From Filimonas lacunae (GTDB lineage Bacteria; Bacteroidota; Bacteroidia; Chitinophagales; Chitinophagaceae), in the NCBI RefSeq assembly GCF_002355595.1, contig NZ_AP017422.1, forward strand, positions 2,046,001 through 2,110,000: a stretch of DNA of 64,000 bases, written 5' to 3'. Position numbers and translations under genes: made by a program. Shown here in pieces: positions 57,476 to 61,242 of this stretch. Below the pieces are notes generated by a model, which saw only the letters and a list, made by a program, of their open reading frames with translations, made no database searches and had not been told where the DNA came from. The first letter of the stretch is position 1; every line of letters begins with the position of its first letter.

Positions 57476-58357
57476 ATGCAAAAAAGAGTAGTATTTGATT
57501 TTGAAGTTGAATTTACCAATGGTGGTGGCATTCAGGGCCAGGATTTCAGGCTGGATATGGAAGGCGAAGAAATTGCCGATAAAGCTCTTGCCGATTATAT
57601 TGTGCAAGACATGCGCTTGCTGATGGTGGGCAAGGTTTCCATTCTCAATAAATACTATATCACTGAAAAACATAAGCGTACGCCAATAGATGCTTATACT
57701 GGCGAAAACCTGATTGATCTGAGTCATACCGTTTTCAATGGACTTATCACCTACAAAGGCTTACCCGCGCCTGTTATTTGTGATTACCTGAGCCGGGAAA
57801 AATCGAAAAGCCTTTATGCAGAAGGAACCGAGTTTCAGATAGGGAAAATAGAAATGGTGTCCAATACCGGTACTTATATCGATTGTCCCTTTCACCGGTT
57901 TGAACATGGTAAAGACCTGTCTGAAATAGAGCTGGAAGCATTTGCCAACCTCGAAGCCATTACCATCCAGGCAAAAGGGGTAACAGAAGTGGGCATTGAA
58001 TATTTTACTGCAAAAGAAATTCGCAACAAGGCCGTGTTGGTACACACCGGCTGGGCCCAACACTGGAATACCGAAAAGTATTTTGAAAACCATCCTTATG
58101 TAACTGCCGAAGCCGCTGAATGGCTAAGAGATTGTGGAGTAAAATTAGTAGGTATTGACAGTCATAATATTGACAACACCGCTGGCAAAAGCCGCCCGGT
58201 ACACACCACTTTGCTAGGTGCCGAAATATTGATAGCAGAGCATTTATGCAACCTGGATAAACTACCCGAAACTGGTTATCTTTTTAACGCTGTACCGCCT
58301 AAAGTAAAAGGAATGGGTACTTTCCCGGTGCGGGCTTATGCAAAGCTGTGCAGGTAA
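57476..58357 (+). CDS. Cyclase-family (kynurenine formamidase-like) protein with N-terminal extension
   Basis: 293 residues. Residues about 83-290 are the cyclase domain (LIDLSHTVFNGLITYKGLPA, VLVHTGWAQHWNTEKYFENH, VGIDSHNIDN). The family metal motif HxGTHxDxPxH appears as NTGTYIDCPFH at 130-140: the first two His ligands are Asn130 and Tyr134, while Asp136 and His140 remain. Residues 1-80 form a separate extension (VVFDFEVEFTNGGGIQGQDF, YIVQDMRLLMVGKVSILNKY). A clade with this altered motif exists, so it is probably functional, perhaps with another metal or reaction. Cytosolic. Confidence 0.85.
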   Translation: MQKRVVFDFEVEFTNGGGIQGQDFRLDMEGEEIADKALADYIVQDMRLLMVGKVSILNKYYITEKHKRTPIDAYTGENLIDLSHTVFNGLITYKGLPAPVICDYLSREKSKSLYAEGTEFQIGKIEMVSNTGTYIDCPFHRFEHGKDLSEIELEAFANLEAITIQAKGVTEVGIEYFTAKEIRNKAVLVHTGWAQHWNTEKYFENHPYVTAEAAEWLRDCGVKLVGIDSHNIDNTAGKSRPVHTTLLGAEILIAEHLCNLDKLPETGYLFNAVPPKVKGMGTFPVRAYAKLCR

Positions 58358-58429: not shown

Positions 58430-58458
58430 CAGGAGAAAGAATCCTCCATTTCTCCCAC

Positions 58459-58563
58459 CTGCTGAGTGATTCGTGCGTACTGCTGAGTGATTCGTCCGTA
58501 CGGATGGATGAGTCATCCATCCCATGGGATGAGCCATCCATCCGTACGGATGAGCCTTCAGGA
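58459..58563. repeat. 21-bp-period palindromic tandem repeat, left block
   Basis: Five consecutive 21-bp units starting at 58459, 58480, 58501, 58522 and 58543. The first two differ at one base. Later units have a palindromic hexamer (CGTACG across a junction, or CCATGG) followed by the 15-mer GATGAGTCATCCATC or close variants. Overlapping perfect palindromes result: 58495-58504, 58502-58522 (10-bp arms), 58518-58531 and 58539-58552. No coding reading is convincing on either strand. Confidence 0.8.
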
Positions 58564-58657
58564 AGTACATTTTGCTTCTTTTTTCTTCCTTCCTGCCTGA
58601 TGGTCAATAACACTATATGCTTCTATAGCGCGCGTTTATTACTGCTTTTTGCTTTCC

Positions 58658-58815
58658 GGGCGTTCATCCGTACTGCCCGACCATTCATCCTATGGGAGCA
58701 ACCGCCCGGCAGTACGCATGAATGAGTCAGCAGGTGGGATGAATGACTCATCCGTACTGCCGGGCCATCCATCCCATGGGACGAGTCATCCATCCGTACG
58801 GATGAGTCGTGGGAA
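58658..58815. repeat. 21-bp-period palindromic tandem repeat, right block
   Basis: Seven to eight units with the same 21-bp period and the same phase as the left block (58774 minus 58501 is 13 x 21). The 45 bases at 58764-58808 repeat those at 58512-58556 with 41 identities. Some units are flipped: 12-bp arms at 58705-58716 and 58753-58764, with 8-bp inner arms at 58722-58729 and 58744-58751, make one large hairpin. Palindromes TCCCATGGGA (58772-58781) and CATCCGTACGGATG (58791-58804) recur. Confidence 0.8.
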
Positions 58816-58998
58816 AGTAGTTTTTCGGGCATGTCTGATTGTTAAATGGAACGAAATATACCAGGCATTGGCAAATGAACAACCTCAGGCAGCTGCCGCC
58901 TGAGGTATAAGTTAATACACCCATAACAGTAAAATGCAGTAACTTTTGTTACGTTTTACCCAATCTAACCTTCTTAAAACCGAAGCAATAAAATTGGT
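58816..58998. other. Leader region before the rhamnosidase gene
   Basis: No gene. It holds an 8-bp perfect GC-rich hairpin (58883-58890 with 58898-58905, loop of seven) without a T-run, and a -7-like TAACTTTTG at 58940-58948 that could be the promoter of the rhamnosidase gene. The same core sits inside a small GTAAC/GTTAC dyad. Confidence 0.35.
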
Positions 58999-61242
58999 AT
59001 GTTCACCTTCCTGAAGCACTTATTCCTTTTTCTATTTACCAGCATCTCCCTGGTAAAGGCGCAACAGCTATCATGGAGCGAAAAAGCACAATGGATAAGC
59101 ACCTCTTTTAGGGAAGACAGCACAAGGCCCAGCCCGGTTTTTACCAAACAGTTCACCATTACCGGCAAAGTACAAAATGCTGATGTGTACATTACGGCAC
59201 ATGGTGTATACATGGTTACGATAAATGGCAAGCGGGTTGGTGACGCTTATTTTGCCCCTGGATGGACCAATTACGATAAAAGATTGCAATACCAGCAATA
59301 CAATCTGAAGCCTTATTTAAAGCCTGGAAACAACCAGGTAGAGGTAACCATAGGCGAAGGGTGGTACAGGGGCCAGTTTGGTGGTTTAATGTTGTCAGAC
59401 AACTATGGAAAAGAGGCTTCACTATTATTTCAGATAAACCTGCAATATGCTAATGGCGCTAAAAGCGTGATGGTATCAGACAGCACCTGGCTATGCCGCA
59501 CCGGCAAAATACGCCATTCAGATATTTATGGAGGAGAATGTTACGATGCAGGCTATCAGCCTGGCAATTGGCAACCGGTGCAGGTAAAAGCTTTTACCAA
59601 ACAAAACCTGGTGCCAACAATAAATGAACCGGTAACCAAACAGGAAACTTTTGCTCCGGTACGTGTATGGCTTACCCCTAAGAAAGAGCAGGTAATTGAC
59701 TTTGGCCAAAACCTGGCAGGCTGGGTGCAGTTTACAGTTACCGGTAAAAAAGGCGATACCATACAAGTGGAGCATGCCGAAGTGCTGGATAAAGAAGGGA
59801 ATTTTTATACGGGCAACCTACGTGAAGCAAAGGCCACCGATACATACATCCTCAAAGGCGGCAAGCCCGAAACTTTTGAGCCGCATTTTACGTGGCATGG
59901 CTTCCGCTATGTAAAAGTTACAGGCGCTACCGTAAAACCCCATCAATGGAAAGCCATCGCCTTATATTCCAACATGCAACCGGCGGGAGAGTTCAGTTGT
60001 TCCGATACCTTCATCAACCGCTTACAACATAACATACTATGGAGTCTGAAAGGTAATTTCCTGGACATACCTACCGATTGCCCGCAACGTAGCGAGCGGT
60101 TTGGCTGGACGGGGGATGCGCATGCTTTTTTTCGCTCGGCTACGTTTAACTATAACGTAAAAGATTTCTTTGCCAAATGGCTGGCCGATCTGGCTTCGGA
60201 GCAGCGCCCGGATGGATCAGTGCCTAACATCATCCCTAATATTTATAAAAATATAGCCCAGGCCAGTAAAACCGGTCGTGCAGGCTGGGGCGATGCAGCA
60301 GTGATTATACCCTGGACGCATTACTGGATATATGGTGATACCAGCATTTTACAGGCCCAATACCCCAGTATGAAAGCATGGGTGGAATACATCAACAGTG
60401 TAAGCAAAGATTACCTGTGGACGGGTAACGGTTATGGCGATTGGCTGGCGCCAGGCGATTCCACCTCATTGCCGTATATAGATCAATGTTTTTGGGCCTA
60501 TTCCACCCAGTTGTTAATACATACCGCAAACGTGCTGGGTAAGGTAGAAGACAGCCTGCATTACACCAGCCTGTTAAATAACATTAAAACTACTTTCCGG
60601 AAATATATACAGCCCGATGGTAAAGCCATTACCCACACCCAAACTGCATATGTGTTGGCGCTACAGTTTAACATGTTGCCCGATAGTATGCAGCCCAAAG
60701 CCATTAATCACCTGGTAACGTTAATAAAAGAAAATAACTATCATCTTAGCACGGGGTTTTTAGGTACGCCTTACCTGTTATTTGCGCTAAGTAACAATGG
60801 CCACACCGATATAGCCTATAAACTGTTAATGCAGGATACCTACCCATCCTGGTTATACCCGGTAAAAATGGGAGCTACCACCATATGGGAAAAATGGGAT
60901 GCCATTAAACCAGATAGTTCTGTACAGGCAACTTCTTACAACCACTATGCTTATGGTGCAGTGGCCGAATGGTTGTATCGCATAGTAGCAGGCATTGATC
61001 TGTCCGCTGAAGGGTATAGGCATATTATCATACGCCCGCAACCCGGCGGGGGCTTAACATGGGCAAAAGCGGTGTACCAAAGTCCCTATGGCAAAATAGT
61101 ATCGCAATGGCAGCGTGTTGGAAAGAAGATTAAAATGCAGGTAGAAATTCCGGCCAATACACAGGCTACAATATATATACCGGGCAAAGGGAGCCAGGTA
61201 ATACAGCAAAGATATTTCTCCGGGGAGGGGGAGGTAGAATAA
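58999..61242 (+). CDS. Alpha-L-rhamnosidase (GH78)
   Basis: 747 residues. Signal peptide MFTFLKHLFLFLFTSISLVK with cleavage after VKAQ. Seen: the N-terminal rhamnosidase beta domain (VTINGKRVGDAYFAPGWTNY, NNQVEVTIGEGWYRG), the concanavalin-like domain (IDFGQNLAGWVQFTVTG), and the six-hairpin catalytic domain with DCPQRSERFGWTGD at 360-373 carrying the acid residues of GH78. It lacks the extra N-terminal domain of the largest members. It should remove terminal alpha-L-rhamnose from plant or bacterial glycans in the periplasm or outside. No SusCD pair is adjacent; the AraC gene next to it may regulate it. Confidence 0.95.
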   Translation: MFTFLKHLFLFLFTSISLVKAQQLSWSEKAQWISTSFREDSTRPSPVFTKQFTITGKVQNADVYITAHGVYMVTINGKRVGDAYFAPGWTNYDKRLQYQQYNLKPYLKPGNNQVEVTIGEGWYRGQFGGLMLSDNYGKEASLLFQINLQYANGAKSVMVSDSTWLCRTGKIRHSDIYGGECYDAGYQPGNWQPVQVKAFTKQNLVPTINEPVTKQETFAPVRVWLTPKKEQVIDFGQNLAGWVQFTVTGKKGDTIQVEHAEVLDKEGNFYTGNLREAKATDTYILKGGKPETFEPHFTWHGFRYVKVTGATVKPHQWKAIALYSNMQPAGEFSCSDTFINRLQHNILWSLKGNFLDIPTDCPQRSERFGWTGDAHAFFRSATFNYNVKDFFAKWLADLASEQRPDGSVPNIIPNIYKNIAQASKTGRAGWGDAAVIIPWTHYWIYGDTSILQAQYPSMKAWVEYINSVSKDYLWTGNGYGDWLAPGDSTSLPYIDQCFWAYSTQLLIHTANVLGKVEDSLHYTSLLNNIKTTFRKYIQPDGKAITHTQTAYVLALQFNMLPDSMQPKAINHLVTLIKENNYHLSTGFLGTPYLLFALSNNGHTDIAYKLLMQDTYPSWLYPVKMGATTIWEKWDAIKPDSSVQATSYNHYAYGAVAEWLYRIVAGIDLSAEGYRHIIIRPQPGGGLTWAKAVYQSPYGKIVSQWQRVGKKIKMQVEIPANTQATIYIPGKGSQVIQQRYFSGEGEVE

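Follow-up and report, generated by a model that had tools for sequence, protein, structure and literature searches.

A 21-bp dyad lattice in an intergenic gap of Filimonas lacunae belongs to a six-copy family and shares its geometry with many mostly unrelated arrays

The gap between the genes for a putative cyclase and an alpha-L-rhamnosidase of Filimonas lacunae holds a tandem repeat of 21-bp units, and the locus raises the question of what kind of element this is and what keeps its spacing. The gap lies within the window, by which we mean the whole stretch of 64,000 nucleotides that was analysed. A sequence-only reading had reported a palindrome-rich array with a period of 21 bp at this place, and the array is real: across positions 58446-58812 the lag-21 match was 0.488 (500 dinucleotide shuffles: mean 0.252, maximum 0.318), and at the dyad phase there was an excess of 0.128 (mean 0.023, maximum 0.050), values that none of the 500 shuffles reached for either measure. 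The period corresponds to two turns of B-DNA. Comparison with the other copies described below set the start of the element at 58446 and its end at ∼58812-58825. TRF reported 21-bp arrays at 58459-58501 and 58506-58556; block 2 of the window array was not reported by this program.

The two blocks had been said to share an exact phase. This holds from 58544 to 58796, where all GTAC sites fall on 17 mod 21, but not for the first two of the eight GTAC sites, 58477 and 58498 (13 mod 21), which are off phase because of a 4-bp insertion that is absent from the other five copies; the resulting phase jump of +4 lies between 58498 and 58523. With the jump removed, the window copy (copy A) comprises 17 in-register units, 11 of which carry a palindromic tetramer at their centre. 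Its block 2 amounts to one and part of an 84-bp (4 x 21) higher-order unit, of which copies B-F contain more repeats.

Features of the window array (copy A) and of its flanks; positions are those of the window.
Feature	Position	Strand	Basis or remark
Entire element (copy A), a dyad lattice of 21 bp	58446..58812	+	own-genome search, copy alignment
Left end CCATTTCTCCCACCTGC	58446..58462	+	exact in 5/6 copies; two mismatches in copy D
Block 1	58459..58567	+	lattice units; GTAC at 58477, 58498, 58544, 58565; CATG at 58523
Spacer	58555..58674	+	aligned gap-free across the six copies; lattice less pronounced
Block 2	58660..58812	+	GTAC at 58670, 58712, 58754, 58796; TATG at 58691; CATG at 58775
Longest inverted repeat, left arm	58453..58483	+	partner 58709-58739
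Longest inverted repeat, right arm	58709..58739	+	partner 58453-58483
Right end GGATGAGTCGTGGGAAAGTAGTTTTT with T-tract	58800..58825	+	similar in B, C, F; altered in D, E
Flanking gene, putative cyclase (PF04199)	57476..58357	+	
Flanking gene, alpha-L-rhamnosidase (PF17389, PF08531, PF05592, PF17390)	58999..61242	+	

A search of the organism's own genome (7,814,405 bp in one contig; reported as circular and 7.81 Mb in PMC4945802) with the array yielded five further loci at 1.73, 3.26, 3.55, 3.67 and 4.37 Mb, so the outcome that the motif is absent elsewhere did not arise. The six copies, A to F, are 367, 573, 573, 594, 531 and 573 bp long and 62-87% identical in pairs. All of them sit in gaps between long ORFs, and these gaps are mutually unrelated. 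The copies follow a common plan of left end CCATTTCTCCCACCTGC, block 1, spacer, block 2 of 84-bp units and right end; the latter has the consensus GGATGAGnnRTGG, followed by a T-tract in four copies. The two ends of the element are only roughly inverted. The stretch between the blocks, earlier described as degenerate, is not random: its 120 columns align without a gap across the six copies.

Among 28 matches to the core motif in the own genome (two or fewer mismatches; control, 4 matches), 27 fell into five of the six loci, none into copy D and one elsewhere. The left-end pattern, with up to three mismatches allowed, matched 55 times, 11 times inside the six copies (control, 19). The best match outside them is a lone left end with one mismatch at 1457374-1457390 of the own genome (G000). 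An exact left-end scan of genome contigs returned 38 stretches, none of which was element-like (no blastn match at 1e-3; L069 was also inspected by eye), and copy C had no match in plasmid and phage collections. The core 19-mer matched one viral contig, which was judged a chance match. A pattern of five GTAC in the lattice occurred in at least 100 stretches of viral contigs, where a rough estimate gives tens by chance. The six copies showed no shared direct repeat next to both ends, as a target-site duplication would leave. Copy D was also compared with two genomes of the same genus, G002 and G001, in both of which the adjoining MscS gene is present; in G002 the homology stops at the end of this gene and the neighbours differ, and there is therefore no clean empty site. 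The window cyclase has no close ortholog in either genome.

GC skew at 40 sampled positions places the origin at ∼7.0-7.1 Mb and the terminus at ∼3.1 Mb of the own genome. Each of the six window-family copies (1.73-4.37 Mb) lies within 1.4 Mb of this inferred terminus, an arrangement with a chance of 0.002 in a post hoc calculation, and by our reckoning their orientation relative to replication is 3:3. Other arrays found in the genome, described below, are spread over the chromosome.

The lattice of the family is regular. GTAC occupies the common 21-bp phase in 12/12 cases in copy B, 12/12 in C, 13/15 in D, 6/6 in E and 11/12 in F; copy A has two GTAC before its 4-bp jump and six after it. Taken over the 151 units of the six copies (jump removed), a perfectly palindromic tetramer marks the lattice phase in 76 units, compared with 0-11 at each of the 20 other phases. 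The consensus unit, ATTCATCCGTACGGATGAGTC, is itself near-palindromic, and dyads therefore recur every 10.5 bp.

The gaps in the alignment obey the same spacing. Inside the element, every gap in the six-copy alignment measures a multiple of 21 bp, with the single 4-bp event as the exception. The three closest copies (B, C and F) share 542 gap-free columns with at least 143 substitutions, and their internal gaps are of 21 bp only. Gaps confined to such multiples are a pattern typical of coding DNA. Because a coding role is not upheld (see below), we read this pattern as a probable constraint on spacing.

Is this geometry peculiar to one family? The GTAC pattern favours periods that divide 42, and we therefore built a detector for dyad arrays of periods 13-35; tallies of periods among GTAC-pattern matches are biased, and scans with the dyad detector or for direct repeats are free of that bias. 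With uncorrected first thresholds the detector gave 19 matches in control records and 10 in the own sample, and for this reason it was changed to score the excess over other periods. The own-genome scan covered 60 pieces of 20 kb chosen by position (1.2 Mb; the window was excluded, and the second batch leans to 0-3 Mb). It revealed ten dyad arrays of period 21, nine of them outside long ORFs (largest overlying ORF 167 aa). The remaining one lies inside an ORF of 1120 aa (L305 15260-18622), which also contains 33-bp repeats, and was regarded as a coding repeat of the ordinary sort. Periods other than 21 were seen in five dyad arrays of the own genome and in one of G002, all inside ORFs of 262-1120 aa. 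Block-shuffled own sequence gave no array in 400 kb. A direct-repeat scan without the dyad condition found 11 arrays outside ORFs of at least 200 aa, with periods of 21 (seven arrays), 42 (two), 11 (L102, with 21 in register) and 15 (at threshold); direct-repeat arrays inside ORFs were of mixed periods. Nine arrays in 1.2 Mb extrapolate to ∼59 per genome (95% range 27-111).

These arrays share little beyond their geometry. In BLAST comparisons most of those compared were unrelated, L134 and L292 as well as L293 and L302 being weakly related. Two arrays, L094 11426-11840 and L110 15100-15500, are kin (59% over 354 bp) and constitute a second family with more than one copy; they end in inverted A/T-tract ends of the type TTACGGAAAAAATATTCGTAC ... 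GTACGAATATTTTTTCCGTAA, which are in lattice register. Across 18 arrays, the match at lag 21 was 0.37-0.50 versus 0.18-0.36 at lags 20 and 22. Pooled complementarity in the same 18 arrays was flat over distance (0.38-0.42), and the symmetry thus belongs to the shared unit and is not kept site by site. Phased A/T curvature was rejected as a common denominator: some arrays have high power at 10.5 bp, whereas others, among them the window family, have low power. A terminator role was likewise rejected, the gene context being mixed, with tandem, divergent and convergent flanks. Collectively, these data show that the window array is one of six intergenic copies, and that its family is one of many mostly unrelated arrays with a shared geometry.

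It is usually by their sequence that repeat families are recognised. The arrays share spacing and symmetry rather than sequence, and sequence searches with the window family therefore find its own copies only. None was found outside the own genome, either by BLAST in 293 other genomes of the taxonomic family or by profile in 287. The BLAST search, with two candidates scored per genome, returned two of the six own copies, and the profile search, with five candidates scored, returned five and missed copy D; because both missed own copies, the absence elsewhere holds at limited sensitivity.

The geometry extends further than the sequence. Four GTAC at 42-bp spacing were found in 25 of 294 genomes of the family and in 15 of 395 genomes of the phylum (the own genome counted in both), with ∼0.0008 chance matches estimated per genome of the own size (GTAC density 3.23 per kb). 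The control pattern of the lattice search reads CATG and therefore is not a chance control. We analysed 20 loci from as many different genomes among these 25 of the family: 15 scored as dyad arrays of period 21, two as period 14 and one as period 16, and two gave no score; no stop-to-stop ORF of 150 aa covered the centre in nine of the 15. Two genomes, G246 and G048, gave 36/51 and 15/17 GTAC/CATG lattice matches, which suggests that they are rich in arrays. In other families of the phylum, the GTAC pattern led to three arrays with dyad scores at period 21 (L314, L315 and L316); no ORF of at least 150 aa lies over L315 or L316, and one of 155 aa lies over L314.

Occurrence is patchy even among close relatives. 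G002 had two arrays in 400 kb and further ones at L080, C2:145792 and C3:277509. The last region of G002 (L326 1511-2380, ∼277-278 kb of C3) shows the highest dyad excess found (0.30); it contains GACTCATCCGTAC, as the window does, yet does not resemble the window family when compared phase by phase (0.316). No array was detected in 400 kb of G001 or in 400 kb of G006, a genome of the same family, nor was any period-21 dyad array in 291 kb of control records from other organisms, which held four of periods 33, 15, 30 and 24; the direct-repeat scan gave one period-21 repeat at threshold in a Prevotella control record. At the rate of the own genome, the chance of finding none is 0.11 in 291 kb and 0.05 in 400 kb, and each absence is weak when taken alone.

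One gap could be followed between species. Array L107 (11631-12160) of the own genome lies between truA, assigned by eye, and a 16S rRNA gene. The truA-rRNA gap of G002 (L317) contains ∼560 bp of a 42/21-bp repeat (match 0.48 at lag 42, 0.34 and 0.28 at lags 41 and 43), whose dyads are weak and stay under the detector threshold even when this is lowered. The two arrays are unrelated in sequence, their best phase match of 0.313 being close to the median of 91 array pairs (0.316). This one locus fits either a lattice that persisted through turnover of its sequence or the independent arrival of two arrays. The corresponding gap in G001 measures ∼200 bp and has no array, and none was found in G056. 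Since G001 lacks both arrays in the 400 kb scanned and an array at truA, any function is not general.

The explanation that we consider best, with a probability of about 0.4, is that the arrays are phased dyad sites for a putative DNA protein that binds cooperatively, perhaps spread as a mobile repeat. A double-stranded DNA lattice is favoured because of the two-turn period, the dimer symmetry, the near-absence of indels other than multiples of 21 bp and the lack of strand bias. Each unit would be a degenerate candidate binding site for a protein dimer, and the fixed spacing of two turns would set the dimers on one face of the DNA, allowing cooperative binding along 17 to ∼45 sites much as EBNA1 dimers bind sites 21 bp apart. 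Selection would keep spacing and symmetry but leave the sequence to drift and turn over. The elements probably reached their gaps as units, by mobility or copying; recombination may then have added and removed multiples of 21 bp, and template switching may occasionally have made arms alike. A dense protein-binding array on one DNA face had been proposed before as one possibility for the window; it gains support from the 21-bp phase lock, seen in six copies and in unrelated arrays, the protein itself remaining putative.

The freedom of sequence is the strangest feature of the arrays. That sequences differ between arrays argues against one sequence-specific protein; perhaps the protein reads DNA shape, or several paralogous proteins take part. 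The flat complementarity, the mixed gene context, the lack of arrays in the G001 sample and the weak dyads at truA in G002 also count against the binding model. A wider version of the binding model, which we regard as doubtful, is that in some members of the family geometry alone is conserved in dozens of intergenic arrays, with sequence free to change and sites disposed as if for a putative protein that polymerises by helical phase, so as to form a chromatin- or insulator-like lattice; the truA-rRNA gap would then present a lattice kept, and a sequence replaced, in two species. Should the lattice serve as a platform for protein, bacteria would have a DNA organiser of a new kind.

The main rival, which we hold to be possible though rather unlikely, is a functionless satellite that arises from palindromic seeds through a built-in 21-bp ruler, either of replication or of some enzyme (such as the two-turn footprint of a recombinase, nuclease or transposase); its families would spread in the form of copied or non-autonomous mobile DNA and decay afterwards. 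It would account for one unit length across many unrelated sequences, for the dispersal of six copies with conserved ends, for the inverted ends of the kin arrays L094 and L110 and for the patchy occurrence among genomes. Decay to ∼40-50% unit identity should, as a general expectation, bring many small indels, whereas copies B, C and F show only 21-bp indels beside their 143 substitutions. The lack of a target-site duplication and a sole Y1_Tnp gene that is unlinked (see below) also speak against it. If the arrays are nevertheless the product of a ruler-like enzyme, they point to an unknown amplifying activity.

The inverted repeats of the copies invite a different explanation, a fold-back element working through hairpins of single-stranded DNA or RNA in which arms pair over hundreds of bases. 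The best inverted arms of the six copies measure 27-40 bp and enclose loops of 204-349 bp; in copy E, 39 of 40 bp are paired around a loop of 236. Arms match better within a copy (0.859) than when swapped between copies (0.797), a value reached by two of 720 permutations, the true one included. In the RNAalifold prediction, 24 of 135 pairs show changes on both sides with the pair kept in some sequence, and the z-scores of RNA folding are -10.75 on the plus strand and -7.72 on the minus strand for the window copy and -6.61 for copy C. The arms could reflect RNA or DNA structure, or template switching, which PMC8794818 describes, could have homogenised them. Several observations weigh against pairing as the explanation: the arm mismatches (overlapping arms counted repeatedly) comprise 31 G.T and 37 A.C, which indicates no strand preference and therefore argues against an RNA role; the RNAalifold covariation term of +5.29 is unfavourable; none of the six loci matched Rfam at the gathering score (a search of the L107 stretch returned only 16S rRNA); and the overall complementarity of the arrays is only ∼0.40. 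The RNA reading of the arms is thus not favoured, and we consider the fold-back element as a whole improbable.

A minisatellite grown by slippage had been suggested for the window as well; the rival considered here is an ordinary one whose period arose by chance. Gains and losses of 21-bp multiples and the 84-bp higher-order units are what such growth would leave, and this part of the suggestion stands. It falls short on the common period, which all nine sampled dyad arrays outside long ORFs share although their sequences are mostly unrelated, and on the lack of other gaps. We know of no preferred unit of 21 in slippage, and judge a chance period to be quite improbable.

Very improbable, finally, is a heptad-repeat protein gene, live or decayed, in which 21 bp would stand for seven codons and 21-bp indels would preserve the frame: one plus-strand frame is stop-free in copy B (ATG ORF of 184 aa) and copy D (211 aa), but it is interrupted in the other four copies, and the window copy has its 4-bp jump. 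This frame contains six stops as against 12.0 ± 3.2 in permuted substitutions (16 of 500 permutations), and two minus-strand frames have a similar slight deficit (36 and 11 of 500). Simulation with independent positions gave a stop-free frame over 27 units in 0.8% of cases, compared with two of six copies observed; this simulation ignores linkage within units and kinship of the copies and is cruder, which makes the deficit look stronger. For the best plus-strand frame, pN/pS is 0.72 (spacer) and 0.91 (block 2), which is inside the ranges spanned by the five remaining frames (0.67-1.10 and 0.74-1.34, respectively). A shared reading frame, intact and under purifying selection, is therefore not upheld, and the decayed heptad-repeat gene that the sequence-only reading had named as a possible undoing of its case did not materialise.

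To our knowledge no repeat element fits these arrays. Among the papers listed in searches of open-licence PMC full text, none was seen to describe such arrays, and on this limited basis we judge them to be a new kind. They resemble several known systems in part. Like a minisatellite, the window family varies in copy number by whole units, with gaps in multiples of 21 save the one of 4 bp; a minisatellite would have no fixed unit length across unrelated arrays, whereas nine of nine sampled dyad arrays outside long ORFs have period 21. The Foldback elements of Drosophila have inverted ends built of short tandem repeats, but they are eukaryotic and of other periods, and we know of no fixed helical phase in them. 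MITEs are similar in being short, dispersed and without upheld coding, with roughly inverted ends; the window element differs in lacking a target-site duplication in the six copies compared.

REP/BIME sequences and REPINs with their RAYT share with the arrays an intergenic, palindromic, dispersed and sometimes clustered nature. REPs are described as palindromes of 20-40 bp tagged GTAG or CGTC (PMC3733652). The arrays differ in their fixed 21-bp lattice, in their many unrelated sequences, in the six or fewer copies found per family and in having no adjoining RAYT. The suspicion of a REP-like mobile repeat was right about dispersal, into six unrelated gaps, and failed on the transposase, besides the lack of a target-site duplication: the own genome gave a single Y1_Tnp (RAYT-type) match, a 145-aa open frame at L071 1501-1839 (G000 5517504-5517842), and its 3.3-kb surroundings contain no such array. 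With Y1_Tnp lacking flanking arrays, few copies and GTAC/CATG centres, membership in REP/RAYT was rejected.

The F-plasmid sopC locus and plasmid iterons are tandem protein sites in helical phase, the sopC units containing inverted repeats, and the arrays have the same regularly phased tandem sites. Those systems are tied to par or rep genes, with one sequence per replicon and a cognate DNA-binding protein that is mostly encoded close by, whereas the window array lies between cyclase and rhamnosidase genes, both metabolic. The dyad-symmetry element bound by EBNA1 has dimer sites 21 bp apart from centre to centre (PMC3798644). It belongs to oriP of Epstein-Barr virus, where the origin is viral, the sites are few and the protein is known, whereas the arrays described here are bacterial and intergenic and run to 17 to ∼45 units.
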